From Thalassospira lucentensis (GTDB lineage Bacteria > Pseudomonadota > Alphaproteobacteria > Rhodospirillales > Thalassospiraceae): a stretch of 64,000 bases of DNA. A program made the position numbers and the translations under genes. The stretch is taken from assembly GCF_001613805.1 (NCBI RefSeq), contig NZ_LPVY01000024.1, forward strand, positions 186,001 through 250,000, given 5' to 3'. Shown here one piece after another: positions 2,193 through 59,624 of the stretch (the first letter of the stretch is position 1; each line of letters starts with the position of its first letter). Below the pieces are notes generated by a model. It made no database searches. It was given only the letters and a program-made list of their open reading frames with translations, and was not told the DNA's origin.

Positions 2193-3413
2193 ATGGCCCG
2201 TATTGTCATGAAATTCGGCGGCACATCGGTCGCCGATGTCGAAAAGATCAAGAACGTCGCCCGTCGGGTCAAAGCCGAGGTCGATGCCGGAAATCAGGTC
2301 GCGGTTGTTGTTTCGGCCATGTCGGGCAAGACCAACGAACTGGTAGGCTGGGCTGATGAAATTTCGCCAATGTATGATGCGCGCGAATATGACGTGATCG
2401 TATCGTCGGGCGAACAGGTTACAGTTGGCCTGATCGCGATGGCACTGCAAAGCATGGATGTGCCGGCACGTTCATGGCTTGGCTGGCAGATTCCGATCAA
2501 GACCGACGGGGCACATGCCAAGGCGCGTATCAAGGAAATCGATACCACCGAACTCGACAAGCGCATGAATGGTGGCGAGGTTGTGTGTGTTGCCGGCTTC
2601 CAGGGGATTGCCCCGGATAATCGCATTACCACGCTTGGCCGTGGCGGTTCCGATACTTCGGCGGTGGCTCTTGCCGCGGCCCTGAAGGCGGATCGTTGCG
2701 ATATCTATACCGATGTTGACGGTGTCTATACGACCGACCCGCGTATCGTGCCCAAGGCGCGCAAGATCGAAAAAATTACCTACGAAGAAATGCTTGAACT
2801 GGCATCGCTTGGTGCGAAGGTCCTTCAGACCCGTTCAGTCGAGATGGCGATGAACCATCGCGTCCGGGTGCAGGTCCGTTCGACCTTTAGTGATGCAGAA
2901 GGAACACTTGTTGTAGACGAGGACGAAATCGTGGAACAGGAAGTCGTCAGCGGGATTGCCTATAGCCGTGATGAAGCCAAGATCACCTTGGTGAAAGTCG
3001 CAGACAAACCGGGAATCGCTGCTTCTATCTTCGGCCCGCTGGCCGAGGCCAATATCAATGTCGACATGATCGTGCAGAACGTCTCGGAAGACGGTAAAAG
3101 CACCGACATGACCTTTACCGTGCCGCGCGGCGAATTCAAACGTGCTTTGTCGGTAATTGAGGGTAATTCGGCCAAGATCGGCTACAAGGAATTGCTGAGC
3201 ACGTCGGATGTGACCAAAGTATCGATCATCGGTGTCGGCATGCGTTCGCACGTTGGCGTTGCACGCAAGATGTTTGAAACGCTTGCGGAAAAAGGCATCA
3301 ACATCCAGGTCATTTCGACCTCGGAAATCAAGGTTAGCGTTCTGATTGCCGAAGAATATACCGAACTGGCAGTTCGTGCGCTTCATACCGCTTATGGTCT
3401 TGATGCCGAGTAA
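2193..3413 (+). CDS. lysC: Aspartate kinase
   Basis: 406 residues. The amino-acid kinase domain occupies about residues 1-240 and opens with the KFGGTSVAD nucleotide-binding signature; two ACT domains follow (about 265-335 and 345-406), which bind the feedback effectors lysine and/or threonine in this family. It phosphorylates aspartate, the first step towards lysine, threonine, methionine and diaminopimelate. The ATG at 2193 has a GGGGA ribosome-binding site 6 nt upstream. It heads a plus-strand series; lysC close to ptsP is a common alphaproteobacterial arrangement (from memory). A 9-bp hairpin follows the gene. Confidence 0.96.
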   Translation: MARIVMKFGGTSVADVEKIKNVARRVKAEVDAGNQVAVVVSAMSGKTNELVGWADEISPMYDAREYDVIVSSGEQVTVGLIAMALQSMDVPARSWLGWQIPIKTDGAHAKARIKEIDTTELDKRMNGGEVVCVAGFQGIAPDNRITTLGRGGSDTSAVALAAALKADRCDIYTDVDGVYTTDPRIVPKARKIEKITYEEMLELASLGAKVLQTRSVEMAMNHRVRVQVRSTFSDAEGTLVVDEDEIVEQEVVSGIAYSRDEAKITLVKVADKPGIAASIFGPLAEANINVDMIVQNVSEDGKSTDMTFTVPRGEFKRALSVIEGNSAKIGYKELLSTSDVTKVSIIGVGMRSHVGVARKMFETLAEKGINIQVISTSEIKVSVLIAEEYTELAVRALHTAYGLDAE

Positions 3414-3516
3414 TTTGATAATGTGACTTCGTTGTGTACGATTAAGTCACTGTTAAATTGCGTCAATTATTACATACTAGCTGGAACTATCGGTTTCGGC
3501 CTTTATGATGAAATGG

Positions 3517-3562: not shown

Positions 3563-4591
3563 ATGAGCGATCCGAAATTCGATGCGGCACGCGCCCGTCT
3601 TGAAAAATTGTGGGCGGCGGGCAAGGAATTTCTGGGAACGGATTACGCCATTCTGGCGGGTGCAATGTCCTGGGTTTCCGAACGTCACCTTGTGGCGGCG
3701 GTTTCAAATGCCGGTGGCTTTGGCGTGATTGCCTGCGGGTCGATGACCCCGGATTTGCTGTCAGCCGAAATTGCCGGAACCAAGGCGCTGACCAAAAAGC
3801 CGTTCGGCGTGAACCTGATTACCATGCACCCGATGCTTGACGACTTGATCGAGGTTTGCCGCGAGCACGAGGTTGGTCACGTGGTTCTGGCCGGTGGTCT
3901 GCCGTCATCGGCATCGATCAAGAAAGCCAAGGAATTTGCCAAGGTTGTCTGTTTTGCACCGGCGCTGGTGCTGGCTAAGAAGCTGGTGCGATCAGGTGCG
4001 GATGCGCTGGTGATCGAAGGCAGCGAAGCCGGTGGGCATGTCGGCCCGGTTTCACTGACTGTTCTGGCACAGGAGATCCTTCCGGAAATCAAGGATGTGC
4101 CGATTTTCTGTGCCGGCGGTATCGGTCGTGGCGAAGCCATGACCGGATTGCTTGAACAGGGAGCCGCCGGGGTTCAGGTCGGGACGCGTCTTGTTTGTGC
4201 GACCGAATGCATTGCCCATCCGGATTTCAAAAAGGCCTTTATCCGTGCCAGCGCACGCGACGCGGTTACCACGGTGCAGCTTGACGAACGTTTCCCGGTC
4301 ATTCCGGTGCGTGCGCTTGCCAACAAGGGAACTGACGAATTCCTTGATACCCAGCGCAAGGTGATTGCGAAATTCCGTGCCGGTGAGGTCGATCAGGGCG
4401 AAGCCCAGCTTGAGATCGAACATTTCTGGGCGGGGGCGCTTCGCCGGGCCGTTATTGATGGTGATGTCGAAAGCGGATCGGTTATGGCAGGACAGTCGGT
4501 TGGTATGGTAAAGAAAGAACAACCGGTAGCCGAAATTCTTGAAGAACTGGTCGAACAGGCCGTTCAGTCCCTCGTACGAAGAGACAATTAA
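3563..4591 (+). CDS. Nitronate monooxygenase-family flavin oxidoreductase
   Basis: 342 residues, a TIM-barrel FMN protein of the nitronate monooxygenase / 2-nitropropane dioxygenase family, which also includes FabK-type enoyl-ACP reductases. Visible family features are the N-terminal AGAMSWVSERHLVAAVSNAGG block and the glycine-rich segment EGSEAGGHVGPVSLTVLAQE expected to bind FMN phosphate, followed by FCAGGIGRG. Either oxidation of alkyl nitronates or NAD(P)H-dependent reduction is possible; sequence alone does not decide. It ends 5 bp before ptsP and is probably co-transcribed with it. The ribosome-binding site is poor. Confidence 0.85.
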   Translation: MSDPKFDAARARLEKLWAAGKEFLGTDYAILAGAMSWVSERHLVAAVSNAGGFGVIACGSMTPDLLSAEIAGTKALTKKPFGVNLITMHPMLDDLIEVCREHEVGHVVLAGGLPSSASIKKAKEFAKVVCFAPALVLAKKLVRSGADALVIEGSEAGGHVGPVSLTVLAQEILPEIKDVPIFCAGGIGRGEAMTGLLEQGAAGVQVGTRLVCATECIAHPDFKKAFIRASARDAVTTVQLDERFPVIPVRALANKGTDEFLDTQRKVIAKFRAGEVDQGEAQLEIEHFWAGALRRAVIDGDVESGSVMAGQSVGMVKKEQPVAEILEELVEQAVQSLVRRDN

Positions 4592-56902: not shown

Positions 56903-56943
56903 CGGGACGGGTGCGCCAAAACATTAAACGTGAGGATATATTT

Positions 56944-56989
56944 TTAAACCTCCGGTTAATTGAATGTTAAACTTCCCGTCTTATATATG
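56944..56989 (+). promoter_or_regulatory. Promoter P1 with CtrA-type box
   Basis: TTGAAT (56960-56965) and TATATG (56984-56989) with an 18-nt spacer (16-17 if TATATA/ATATAT is used) form a good sigma-70 promoter. A perfect TTAA-N7-TTAA box (56956-56970) covers the -35, as in CtrA-controlled promoters of Caulobacter; a further TTAA lies 8 nt upstream (56944) and another at 56924. Confidence 0.65.
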
Positions 56990-56991
56990 AG

Positions 56992-57081
56992 TAGTGGGCC
57001 AGAGCTTGGCCCCTTGTCGAACGTGATGTTTCGATGCCTCCCTGTTAAACTGAACCGCCCAAATTCAGGGCGGTTCTTTTT
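56992..57081 (+). ncRNA. Candidate small RNA A (about 90 nt)
   Basis: Downstream of P1 the predicted transcript folds into three stems: GGGCCA/TGGCCC (56996-57012), TCGAA/TTCGA (57017-57034), and a terminator GAACCGCCC/GGGCGGTTC plus five T (57052-57081). Between stems 2 and 3 is an unpaired segment with CCTCCC (57037-57042), complementary to Shine-Dalgarno sequences. No coding frame fits. The layout is that of a trans-acting sRNA. The exact 5' end is inferred. Confidence 0.6.
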
Positions 57082-57095
57082 ATATTTTCGCCTTC

Positions 57096-57136
57096 TACGT
57101 ACTGTTTATACGTATTTCGGTACGTATTAATACGTA
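57096..57136. promoter_or_regulatory. Array of four TACGTA hexamers
   Basis: TACGTA at 57096, 57109, 57121 and 57131 (spacing 13, 12 and 10 bp). The last two form a perfect 16-bp palindrome (57121-57136), and the first and last are both followed by CTGT. The array lies 27-67 bp upstream of the -35 box of the next promoter, the position of an activator site. Confidence 0.6.
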
Positions 57137-57162
57137 CTGTCATATTTCCGACATTAATTACC

Positions 57163-57191
57163 TTGACCCCTTGCCAACCGCTGGCTAGAGT
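57163..57191 (+). promoter_or_regulatory. Promoter P2
   Basis: TTGACC and TAGAGT with a 17-nt spacer, a near-consensus sigma-70 promoter. It can transcribe a short RNA ending at the terminator at 57253-57281, or rcdA by read-through. Confidence 0.65.
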
Positions 57192-57197
57192 TCGGCC

Positions 57198-57276
57198 ACA
57201 AACAAGATCAAGAATAACAAAAAAGTCCGGCAAGTTTAGCAGGTTGAGGCAAGGCCGCCCTTTGGGGCGGTCTTTC
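57198..57276 (+). ncRNA. Candidate small RNA B or rcdA leader (about 80 nt)
   Basis: Between P2 and its terminator is an A-rich, largely unpaired segment (57200-57225) and no reading frame. This could be a second small RNA or an attenuated 5' leader of rcdA, whose ATG is 70 bp after the terminator. Confidence 0.45.
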
Positions 57277-57281
57277 TATTT
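57253..57281 (+). terminator. Terminator upstream of rcdA
   Basis: Stem GGCCGCCC / GGGCGGTC, loop TTTG, then TTTCTATTT. Confidence 0.85.
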
Positions 57282-57314
57282 CGGGGCAAATTCAGGGCAA
57301 ATTCTGGCGGATGC

Positions 57315-57348: not shown

Positions 57349-57798
57349 ATGGCAAATAAGGATCACCCGACCGAGATCGGGCACCCCTATCAAAGCAACT
57401 TCGCGATCGTTCCTTTTTCGCGAACCTATGACGAGGCTTTCACCCTGCTGGTGGAGGCGCGTAATTACCTTTCAGCAAACCGCACCGCATCGCGTCGTGG
57501 CCTTCACAACAGCGTCAAGATGAACCAGTTCATCGAGGAAATGCGCATGACCAGCCGCCTGATCCGGGCGATGGCATGGCTGCTGGCGGTGCGTGCGGTT
57601 GAAGAGGGCGAGATTGATTGGGAAGATGCCGTTGATCTTGATGATCTGATGGTTGATCTGCAAATCTGTGTTCGTGGCGATTGCGACGAAGCAACGGGAT
57701 TCCCGCCAGCCCTTCTTGATCTTATGGAACGTGCCCATTCACTTTACATGCGTACCGCCCGCATGGAACTTCAGGTCGCCGCACGCTGTTCAGCCTGA
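57349..57798 (+). CDS. rcdA: Regulator of CtrA degradation RcdA (DUF1465)
   Basis: 149 residues. The DUF1465 core is visible: FSRTYDEAFTLLVEARNYLS, then MTSRLIRAMAWLLAVRAVEEGEI. In Caulobacter RcdA is an adaptor that helps ClpXP degrade CtrA at the G1-S transition. The N-terminus (MANKDHPTEIG) is followed directly by the domain. There is no Shine-Dalgarno sequence. The upstream region carries a CtrA-type box and two promoter-terminator units. Confidence 0.88.
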   Translation: MANKDHPTEIGHPYQSNFAIVPFSRTYDEAFTLLVEARNYLSANRTASRRGLHNSVKMNQFIEEMRMTSRLIRAMAWLLAVRAVEEGEIDWEDAVDLDDLMVDLQICVRGDCDEATGFPPALLDLMERAHSLYMRTARMELQVAARCSA

Positions 57799-57863: not shown

Positions 57864-59624
57864 TCAGGCGCGCGAGGTGGCGGCAAAGACTTCTATCGGT
57901 TCGGCAAAGCCCTTCATCTGGCGTGTGCCTTTCGATGTGAAGGCCGCCCGGCTGCCGGCGTAGGTATCCTTGACGTTCTGCGACACCAGAATTTCATCAC
58001 CGCCGGCCTGTGCACAGACGCGTGCCGCAAGCTGCACCACGCTGCCAAACAGGTCGTTTTCTTCGGTAATGGCTTCGCCGGCATTGATACCGATGCGGAT
58101 CTGGAATTTCAATTCATCGCGGCCGTTATGCTGGGCCATGTTGCGCTGAATCTCGATGGCGGCTTCGACGGAGCTTGCCGATGACGGGAACACGGCCATG
58201 ATGCCGTCCCCCATATGCTTCACTTCCTTGCCGTAATTGTTGATCAGCGCGGTGCGTACGATCTGGTTATGGATATGCACCATCTGCTGTGCGCCGACAT
58301 CGCCCAGTTGCTGCGTCATCTGGGTGGAATTGACGATATCGGTGAACATCAGCGCATGCAGCTTCTTGCCGCCAGCAGCAACGGGTGCGCCGGTCGGCTT
58401 TTCGGTCCAGGCGGCAATGGCGCGGGATACCGATGTGGTGATGCTGCGCTCGTCCTTCATATAGGCGTCCATCGAGCTTCTGCCCGCGCCATACATGTCC
58501 TTGTATTTCGGCTCCAGAATGTAGCTATCGACATTCTTGCAGAACGTGTCAGCCATGCTGCCGGTCGCACCCAGGGCGGAAATGCAATCCTTCAGGACGC
58601 TGCGTCCCTGCCTTCCTTCAAGGGCGTTCTTTTCGCTACAGGCATCGCAGGCACCGGCAACGTAAAGATTGACGCCGAATTTATGATAGGCGTCCATATT
58701 CGGAACCGTGCGCTTGATGGCTTCGATCGAACCGGCGATGAAGGATTTCATGACCTCGCGCGTGGCCTGAAGTGCGGGCGTCACGGCCATTGGCTGATCG
58801 GGGATGCCGTCATCGCGCTGTTCGGATGCGGATTTGGTATCGTCGGTTTCATCCGCGCCCGTATCAGGCGTTGCTTCATTTTCAGAACGCGCAGCCTCGG
58901 CCGCCATTTCGGCAAAACCGCCTGAGAGGGACGGGCGGCCCGGTGATGCCGTCTTGCGGACTGCCTTGACCGGTTGCCGGGCGACGGATTGCTGCACCGG
59001 TGCGGTGCGTGCCTTGCCCTTGAACCTGCGCGTGATGCTCATCAGCATCGGTGTCGCGCTGGCAAGGAAGCCGACAATGAAGGATATGAAATTGGCTTTG
59101 TCATAAAAGCCCTGACTGATCGAAACACCCATACGCGGCAGGTATTCAAGCCCGTGCGAAGCACCAAGCATTGCGGCCAGACCAATGGCAATCGCAATGC
59201 AAAAGGCAATCATCAGTTTCAGAACCACGCCAACCAGGCTGGGGTTTTCATCGCGGGCCGCAGGCTTTGCCTTTGGGCGGATCGGCTTCGGGGCCGGGCT
59301 TGAAACCGGTTCGGGCTCGACCGCGGCCGGGGCGGGGGCACGAACGGGGGCAGGGCGCGCCGGGGCTGCCTGTGCCTTTTCCAGGGCACCGCTTTGGCGC
59401 GTTTCATAGATGACGTATTCGTCAGCCGCATTATTGGTGTGGTTATAGACTTCGCGAATGACCTTGACGGCGGAGACATGCGCCATCTTTTCAAGCGAGC
59501 GCGCTTCTTCCTCGGCCTGCTTTTTCTGCGCACCGGTAAAGTGGGCGTGAATCTGCCAACGCCCTGAGCGGTCTTTAACATAGACCTCATAGCTGACCTG
59601 GGTGCGCGCGATCACCTGGTTCAT
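57864..59624 (-). CDS. Membrane adenylate/guanylate cyclase with cysteine cluster
   Basis: 586 residues. The N-terminal ~60 residues form a small alpha/beta domain (QVSYEVYVKDRSGRWQIHAH). A Pro/Ala-rich linker, two membrane helices (about 126-150 and 172-192) and a disordered segment follow. Next comes a region with CDAC (~326-329) and two further Cys (LKDC, FCKN). The class III cyclase domain starts near 420: MFTDIVNST with the first metal Asp, KHMGDGIMAVF with the second. The VNxAAR motif reads VQLAAR. It makes cAMP or cGMP; the Cys region may sense metal or redox state. Confidence 0.85.
   Translation of the reverse strand: MNQVIARTQVSYEVYVKDRSGRWQIHAHFTGAQKKQAEEEARSLEKMAHVSAVKVIREVYNHTNNAADEYVIYETRQSGALEKAQAAPARPAPVRAPAPAAVEPEPVSSPAPKPIRPKAKPAARDENPSLVGVVLKLMIAFCIAIAIGLAAMLGASHGLEYLPRMGVSISQGFYDKANFISFIVGFLASATPMLMSITRRFKGKARTAPVQQSVARQPVKAVRKTASPGRPSLSGGFAEMAAEAARSENEATPDTGADETDDTKSASEQRDDGIPDQPMAVTPALQATREVMKSFIAGSIEAIKRTVPNMDAYHKFGVNLYVAGACDACSEKNALEGRQGRSVLKDCISALGATGSMADTFCKNVDSYILEPKYKDMYGAGRSSMDAYMKDERSITTSVSRAIAAWTEKPTGAPVAAGGKKLHALMFTDIVNSTQMTQQLGDVGAQQMVHIHNQIVRTALINNYGKEVKHMGDGIMAVFPSSASSVEAAIEIQRNMAQHNGRDELKFQIRIGINAGEAITEENDLFGSVVQLAARVCAQAGGDEILVSQNVKDTYAGSRAAFTSKGTRQMKGFAEPIEVFAATSRA

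Follow-up and report, generated by a model that had tools for sequence, protein, structure and literature searches.

This locus raises the question of whether the gap in front of an RcdA-family gene in Thalassospira encodes a small RNA that answers to CtrA and, if so, on which messages that RNA would act. The window (the whole 64,000-nucleotide stretch that was analysed) comes from a 4.55-Mb genome of the order Rhodospirillales, and a first-pass annotation had placed here a small RNA of the cell-cycle circuit. Family searches identified the syntenic neighbours, both on the forward strand, as a DUF1192 gene upstream (PF06698; 56714-56902) and a DUF1465/RcdA-family gene downstream (57349-57798). 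The NCBIfam RcdA model gives the DUF1465 protein 53.9 bits against a cut-off of 170, and the name rcdA therefore rests on the family and not on an equivalog. On the other strand, the locus is flanked by an oxidoreductase of the zinc-binding dehydrogenase family upstream and by a cyclase-domain gene downstream (57864-59624); a cyclase-domain gene also lies 3' of the RNA, as judged by eye, at some loci with no rcdA in reach (L095, L097, and L100).

A terminated RNA unit behind a CtrA-type box

Folding, a permissive Rfam search, and alignment delimit the predicted small RNA at 56993-57081 on the forward strand. It comprises two stem-loops predicted by folding (GGGCC/GGCCC, 56993-57014; TCGAAC/GTTTCGA, 57016-57035), a core, GCCTCCCTGTTAAAC (57036-57050), recognised from alignment and the structural ensemble, and an intrinsic terminator (57052-57081; a stem at 57052-57076 and then five T) found by both folding and a terminator scan. 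The three stems and terminator proposed for a segment of about 90 nt are thus recovered as two stem-loops and the terminator, and the segment is more stable than its shuffles (z-score -3.9; none of 200 as stable). The core holds the anti-Shine-Dalgarno motif CCTCCC (57037-57042), which had been described as exposed and is indeed unpaired at 95-100% in the structural ensemble of the segment. From the last base of the terminator to the DUF1465 start is 267 bp, in agreement with the 270 bp given before.

Across 27 Thalassospira loci the core is invariant, and in the alignment of the 27 intergenic regions TTGTCGAACGTGATGTTTCGATGCCTCCCTGTTAAAC is near-invariant, in contrast to the variable first stem and terminator loop. 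Among 115 homologues, CCUCCC is unpaired with a probability of 0.90-0.99, compared to 0.48-0.77 when its flanks are shuffled. The terminator has a covariation score of 0.313 over 49 distinct homologues, compared to 0.132 in shuffled alignments, none of 500 of which reach it, in an alignment that had been fitted to that same structure. A hairpin presenting CCUCCC in its loop has no covariation support (87.0% paired versus 87.8% shuffled). The hexaloop GUUUGACG-CCUCCC-UGUUAAAC, frequent in folds of the class set, is missing from the Thalassospira ensemble and has no covariation support, and was therefore dropped as a conserved element.

A pattern scan places an exact CtrA-type full box (TTAA-N7-TTAA, TTAATTGAATGTTAA) at 56956-56970 and two additional TTAA half-sites at 56924-56927 and 56944-56947, all on the forward strand and where the first-pass annotation had them; the spacing of the half-sites to the full box is not N7. 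By inspection, a -10-like TATATA follows at 56982-56987, its TATAT invariant across the Thalassospira alignment, and transcription would start at about 56993-56996. The full box covers the -35 region of this putative start site, which is the placement used as a criterion for the CtrA regulon. Its position just before the -10-like element suggests activation, as CtrA activates from positions of that kind. The promoter had been called strong, a description that did not hold in a sigma-70 consensus scan, which calls none at the locus; an activator-dependent promoter need not match that consensus. Box and core are 65 nt apart in the window; of the 27 Thalassospira loci, 22 carry an exact box and five a box with one mismatch. 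The window contains two such boxes, compared to a mean of 0.28 in shuffles, and 3 of 100 shuffles reach two; the box alone is therefore only mildly unusual, and its conservation is what counts. The sole other box (3442-3456) lies in a same-strand gap between an aspartokinase-like frame ending at 3413 and the next frame, starting at 3563.

The genome of the window encodes a true CtrA (NCBIfam NF045991, 415.8 bits, cut-off 350), as do 140 of 150 genomes of the order. No CtrA was found in three genomes that carry the box and the RNA (G039, G053, and G133; 77-87% complete), nor in one with a strong match to the RNA (G150; 90% complete).

Further elements occupy the remainder of the intergenic region. 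A second terminated unit (57162-57282) has a CTTGACC promoter-like start, followed by an invariant stretch with AGTCCGGCAAGTTTAGCAGGTTGAGG (57224) and by a GC terminator (57251-57274). Every one of the 27 aligned Thalassospira loci contains the 20-base core of this unit, which, among the loci compared, is confined to that genus. Between the two RNA units lies a palindrome, TACGTATTAATACGTA (57121-57136), which is partly conserved in the genus. The DUF1465 gene has a promoter-like sequence of its own on the forward strand (CTTGAAGC at 57314, then ATATA; inspection and Thalassospira alignment) and is nearly leaderless in appearance in the 27 aligned regions.

Relationship to BjrC1505 and conservation of the box

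BLAST detected the segment in 27 of 28 Thalassospira genomes (that of the window and 27 others; G012 was the miss) and, at the same sensitivity, in none of 32 genomes outside the genus. An Rfam search at the default cut-off gave no match. With permissive settings, 56949-57083 aligns end to end with RF02356 (BjrC1505) at 37.2 bits, below the gathering cut-off of 50 (E 1.6e-5 for 471 bases; 3.5e-5 on the genome scale). The match takes in the promoter part, the GCCUCCCUGUU core, and the terminator, and in the window sRNA the GCCUCCCUGUU core is followed by the GC-rich terminator at the spacing of the family. The first ~23 positions of the RF02356 model hold the CtrA box; the model apparently starts inside the promoter, and the 5' boundary of the family may therefore be drawn too far upstream.

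Of 18 loci sampled elsewhere with the box and the core, 17 pass the Rfam cut-off, the miss being a Thalassospira lucentensis locus. An RcdA-family gene lies downstream in 15 of the 18, and the other three sequences end within about 200 nt. The DUF1192-RNA-DUF1465 order of the window is thus the place of the loci that pass the cut-off, so that the window RNA and BjrC1505 are most simply regarded as orthologues. By this comparison of sequence and position, the window RNA is most simply a divergent Thalassospira branch of the family, from which it differs by its 5' GGGCC stem and by another stem sequence before the core. BjrC1505 has reportedly been verified as expressed in Bradyrhizobium, with a level that falls in nodules. 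In the literature searched, from which subscription papers were mostly absent, it appeared only in a list of Rfam hits.

RF02356 matched 73 of 150 genomes of the order at E up to 0.1, none above the cut-off, and 1 of 14 control genomes (Thermotoga maritima), which makes the tally alone a loose one; there was no match in the control search of Caulobacter vibrioides, where DUF1465 is present. Therefore, a model was built from the core and terminator only. Its initial version, R1, had a wrong RNAalifold structure and was discarded for R2, in which the terminator pairs were given and which scores the window RNA at 63.7 bits. A covariance search across Rhodospirillales had been suggested as a check on the conservation of the stems, and R2, which represents the core and terminator, does match many genomes of the order (132 of 150) and of the class (143 of 289). 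These are not family counts, because the weak-scoring matches partly belong to a different RNA (ACGTCTCCCAGACGT hairpin, without the CtrA box) and perhaps to plain terminators. Two copies of the RNA occur in some genomes, in tandem in L121 (76-128 and 276-327) and on separate contigs in G060 (C3 and C113).

The 58 loci fetched with R2 (L089-L146; 56 distinct) comprise 51 distinct loci of the window type, ten of them from Thalassospira, and five of another CCTCCC RNA. A box with no more than one mismatch lies 45-92 nt 5' of the core in 49 of the 51 (34 exact) and in none of the five. By comparison, such a box is found in 7.5% of local shuffles (0.5% exact) and in 0.4% of other places in the same loci (0.05% exact). 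The two misses are L134, which has two mismatches, and L098, an artefact in which the core pattern fell inside the terminator; the box of L098 is exact. R2 was seeded from matches to RF02356, whose model includes the box, and the order-level loci are therefore not fully independent. Among the 28 class-level loci (L119-L146), six belong to the other RNA; of the 22 left, 21 have a box with no more than one mismatch. Searching named genomes with a pattern of box, gap, and core yielded at least 117 stretches, loci that are not independent and in which Rhizobiales genera dominate. The 117 matches listed are mostly from Rhizobiales, with Sneathiella, Thalassospira, and Rhodospirillales MAGs in addition, all presumably Alphaproteobacteria or MAGs named to that class or to Proteobacteria. 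In 108 of these 117, box and core are separated by 67-74 nt, where 51-81 had been allowed. The CtrA-type box is a trait of the RNA family that is conserved well beyond Thalassospira, as are the CCTCCC core, the terminator, and the place beside an RcdA-family gene.

The RNA and its neighbours

Synteny was assessed with HMMs grown from the DUF1192 and DUF1465 proteins of the window. Of the 117 loci listed, 105 have an RcdA-family gene downstream of the RNA in the same orientation, with some of the stop-to-stop rcdA frames beginning inside the RNA region; seven of the other 12 had less than 300 nt of sequence left. In 71 of the 117, a DUF1192 gene lies upstream, also in the same orientation and sometimes at a distance, and in the order sample it precedes the RNA in most loci, even with no rcdA in reach. 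Viewed from the rcdA side, the association is looser: among 55 rcdA loci (the 30 best-scoring of the class, plus 25 non-Thalassospira loci of the order), R2 matches upstream in the same orientation in 12, and several others keep the DUF1192-rcdA adjacency with the core altered or absent. The altered cores at L373, L374, L391, and L392 (CCTCTGTCGAC, CCTCACTGTG, and GGCTCCCTGTTG) possibly represent a diverging branch. The RNA is thus widespread, and not universal, beside rcdA. On plasmids, rcdA was represented by one weak Sphingomonas match.

Conversely, fifteen genomes of the order carry the box and the RNA but lack a DUF1465 match with E of 0.001 or less (G039, G044, G053, G064, G066, G068, G081, G089, G096, G104, G105, G126, G128, G136, and G155), a set in which 12 are listed at 94% completeness or more and in which a divergent RcdA could escape the Pfam model. 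Retention of the RNA in these genomes indicates that it probably acts in trans.

Start-site papers on Sinorhizobium and agrobacteria describe CtrA motifs in front of rcdA, the agrobacterial one with several start sites. These motifs may be the promoter of this RNA. The literature searched on CtrA, rcdA, small RNAs, and uptake, again mostly without subscription papers, held no account of a CtrA/rcdA link for it.

Candidate targets and proposed role

Exact copies of AACAGGGAGG, the complement of the core sequence CCTCCCTGTT, were sought in thirteen genomes. Of 75 copies, 74 were examined, leaving out the sRNA of the window itself: 22 lie in sRNA genes (among which L294 is probably mis-sorted), 24 at the Shine-Dalgarno sites of frames of at least 100 codons, and 28 elsewhere. 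Thirteen of the 24 precede substrate-binding proteins and two a TRAP permease. Pfam was used to check nine of the 24 (seven substrate-binding, one DctM, and one with no assignment), and seven of the 15 uptake assignments follow from near-identity of the first 60 residues to the Pfam-checked proteins. For one DctP orthologue, the site is kept in six of nine Thalassospira. Candidate targets include a DctP protein, at site G000:C11:53640, and an ABC sugar-binding protein, at site C1:30151. With a permuted 10-mer as control, 21 sites were found, five of them at starts, of which one precedes a substrate-binding protein (Pfam) and two precede ABC ATPases (by eye). These counts include many orthologous sites, and a preference for such genes may simply come with strong Shine-Dalgarno sites. 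GGGAGG is absent from the 320 nt before ctrA and from the 120 nt before the DUF1465 gene. Exact core complements thus often fall on ribosome-binding sites of substrate-binding proteins, which hints that the targets may be mRNAs of ABC and TRAP uptake proteins and not ctrA or rcdA, for which these stretches do not contain the complementary motif.

CCTCCCTGTT is also present in a second anti-Shine-Dalgarno RNA of the same genome. This is one of a tandem pair (L304:980-1450; G000:C2) with the ACGTCTCCCAGACGT hairpin followed by AAGCCTCCCTG and a terminator; the pair weakly resembles the Rfam families SorX and mmgR, with scores of 23.8-28.6 bits that do not reach the cut-offs. The 82 short sequences taken from Table 2 of PMC6413936, on Thalassospira small RNAs, match none of the 27 Thalassospira loci; the entries of that table are miRNA-like predictions, and the mismatch is therefore no test of sRNA expression.

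AbcR1, AbcR2, and NfeR1 of Sinorhizobium likewise carry anti-Shine-Dalgarno motifs directed at ribosome-binding sites, and belong to sequence families other than that of the window sRNA. The AbcR family is absent among the 12 matches that the permissive Rfam search gave up to E 5, and the suhB/mmgR model, which is presumably related to NfeR1, reaches 16.7 bits against a cut-off of 41 (E 0.62). According to PMC8844928, these RNAs act on mRNAs of periplasmic substrate-binding proteins, and its accessible text attributes transcription of AbcR1 and AbcR2 to LsrB and RpoH1, not to a CtrA box.

Cell-cycle-linked RNAs were compared to the window sRNA by description. CcnA of Caulobacter crescentus is longer. 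It has a C-rich loop that pairs with GGGG in target leaders, and it differs in lying at the replication origin and acting on ctrA and gcrA (PMC8959179); two full CtrA sites are predicted in its promoter (CCNA_R0094; PMC5988900). Similarly, EcpR1 and GspR of Sinorhizobium meliloti are trans-acting sRNAs tied to cell-cycle control, EcpR1 acting on dnaA and gcrA and GspR on ctrA and cspA5 (PMC7143759).

The locus is probably best read as the gene of a trans-acting sRNA of the BjrC1505 branch that CtrA activates and that represses uptake proteins by anti-Shine-Dalgarno pairing. Phosphorylated CtrA would bind the box over the -35 region and switch on a transcript of ~90 nt, which its own terminator would end. 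Through its single-stranded CCUCCC(UGUU), this RNA would then pair with Shine-Dalgarno sequences, above all those of ABC and TRAP periplasmic substrate-binding proteins, and block their translation. The activity of CtrA varies with cell cycle and cell type and would in this way set the amount of uptake protein, from a locus shared with rcdA. The first-pass placement of a small RNA in the cell-cycle circuit is thus supported by conservation and by the presence of a CtrA gene, with the modification that its targets are likely uptake mRNAs and that the RNA joins a family already listed.

An unlikely alternative makes the CtrA circuit the target, with the RNA regulating rcdA, ctrA, or further cell-cycle mRNAs in the manner of CcnA in Caulobacter (PMC8959179). 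The genomic neighbourhood and the CtrA box would fit such a role, whereas the stretches scanned before ctrA (320 nt) and the DUF1465 gene (120 nt) do not contain GGGAGG, and the latter gene looks almost without a leader. It is improbable that the segment is a cis element, namely an rcdA leader with a regulated terminator through which CtrA controls rcdA by read-through. The frequent downstream RcdA-family gene and the published Sinorhizobium and agrobacterial motifs would suit an attenuator, but the fifteen genomes with no DUF1465 match retain box and RNA, a second terminated unit and promoter-like sequence intervene in Thalassospira, and the terminator covaries.

RcdA is a CtrA-pathway protein, and the motifs in those same papers are assigned to rcdA; the box could accordingly serve rcdA or the region, with the RNA a housekeeping anti-Shine-Dalgarno sRNA outside CtrA control. 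This is very improbable, given that the box stays within a narrow range of distances from the core, directly precedes the -10-like element of the RNA, and persists where DUF1465 goes undetected. That the locus encodes a small peptide is scarcely credible. The first-pass annotation had seen no reading frame, yet in Thalassospira, where the core shows little variation, one frame runs open from start to core in 26 of 27 loci. Single-base indels occur in the 5' part within the genus, and three frames are open in 37, 32, and 8 loci of the 115-locus class set; the earlier statement therefore stands at class level, where no single frame is kept and coding is unsupported.

Under the CtrA-activated, trans-acting reading, BjrC1505, for which no described function was found, gains a candidate regulator in CtrA, a conserved locus beside a gene of the CtrA-degradation adaptor family, and a testable class of targets. 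A broader proposal is more tentative and may well prove wrong: BjrC1505 could be an ancient part of the core CtrA regulon, placed beside rcdA, that predates the split of Rhodospirillales and Rhizobiales and gates the synthesis of nutrient-uptake proteins by cell-cycle state, with some rhizobial rcdA CtrA sites being its promoter. If the CtrA-activated reading is true, the CtrA boxes annotated at rcdA would deserve re-reading, and a widely shared RNA output would be added to the best-studied bacterial cell-cycle circuit.
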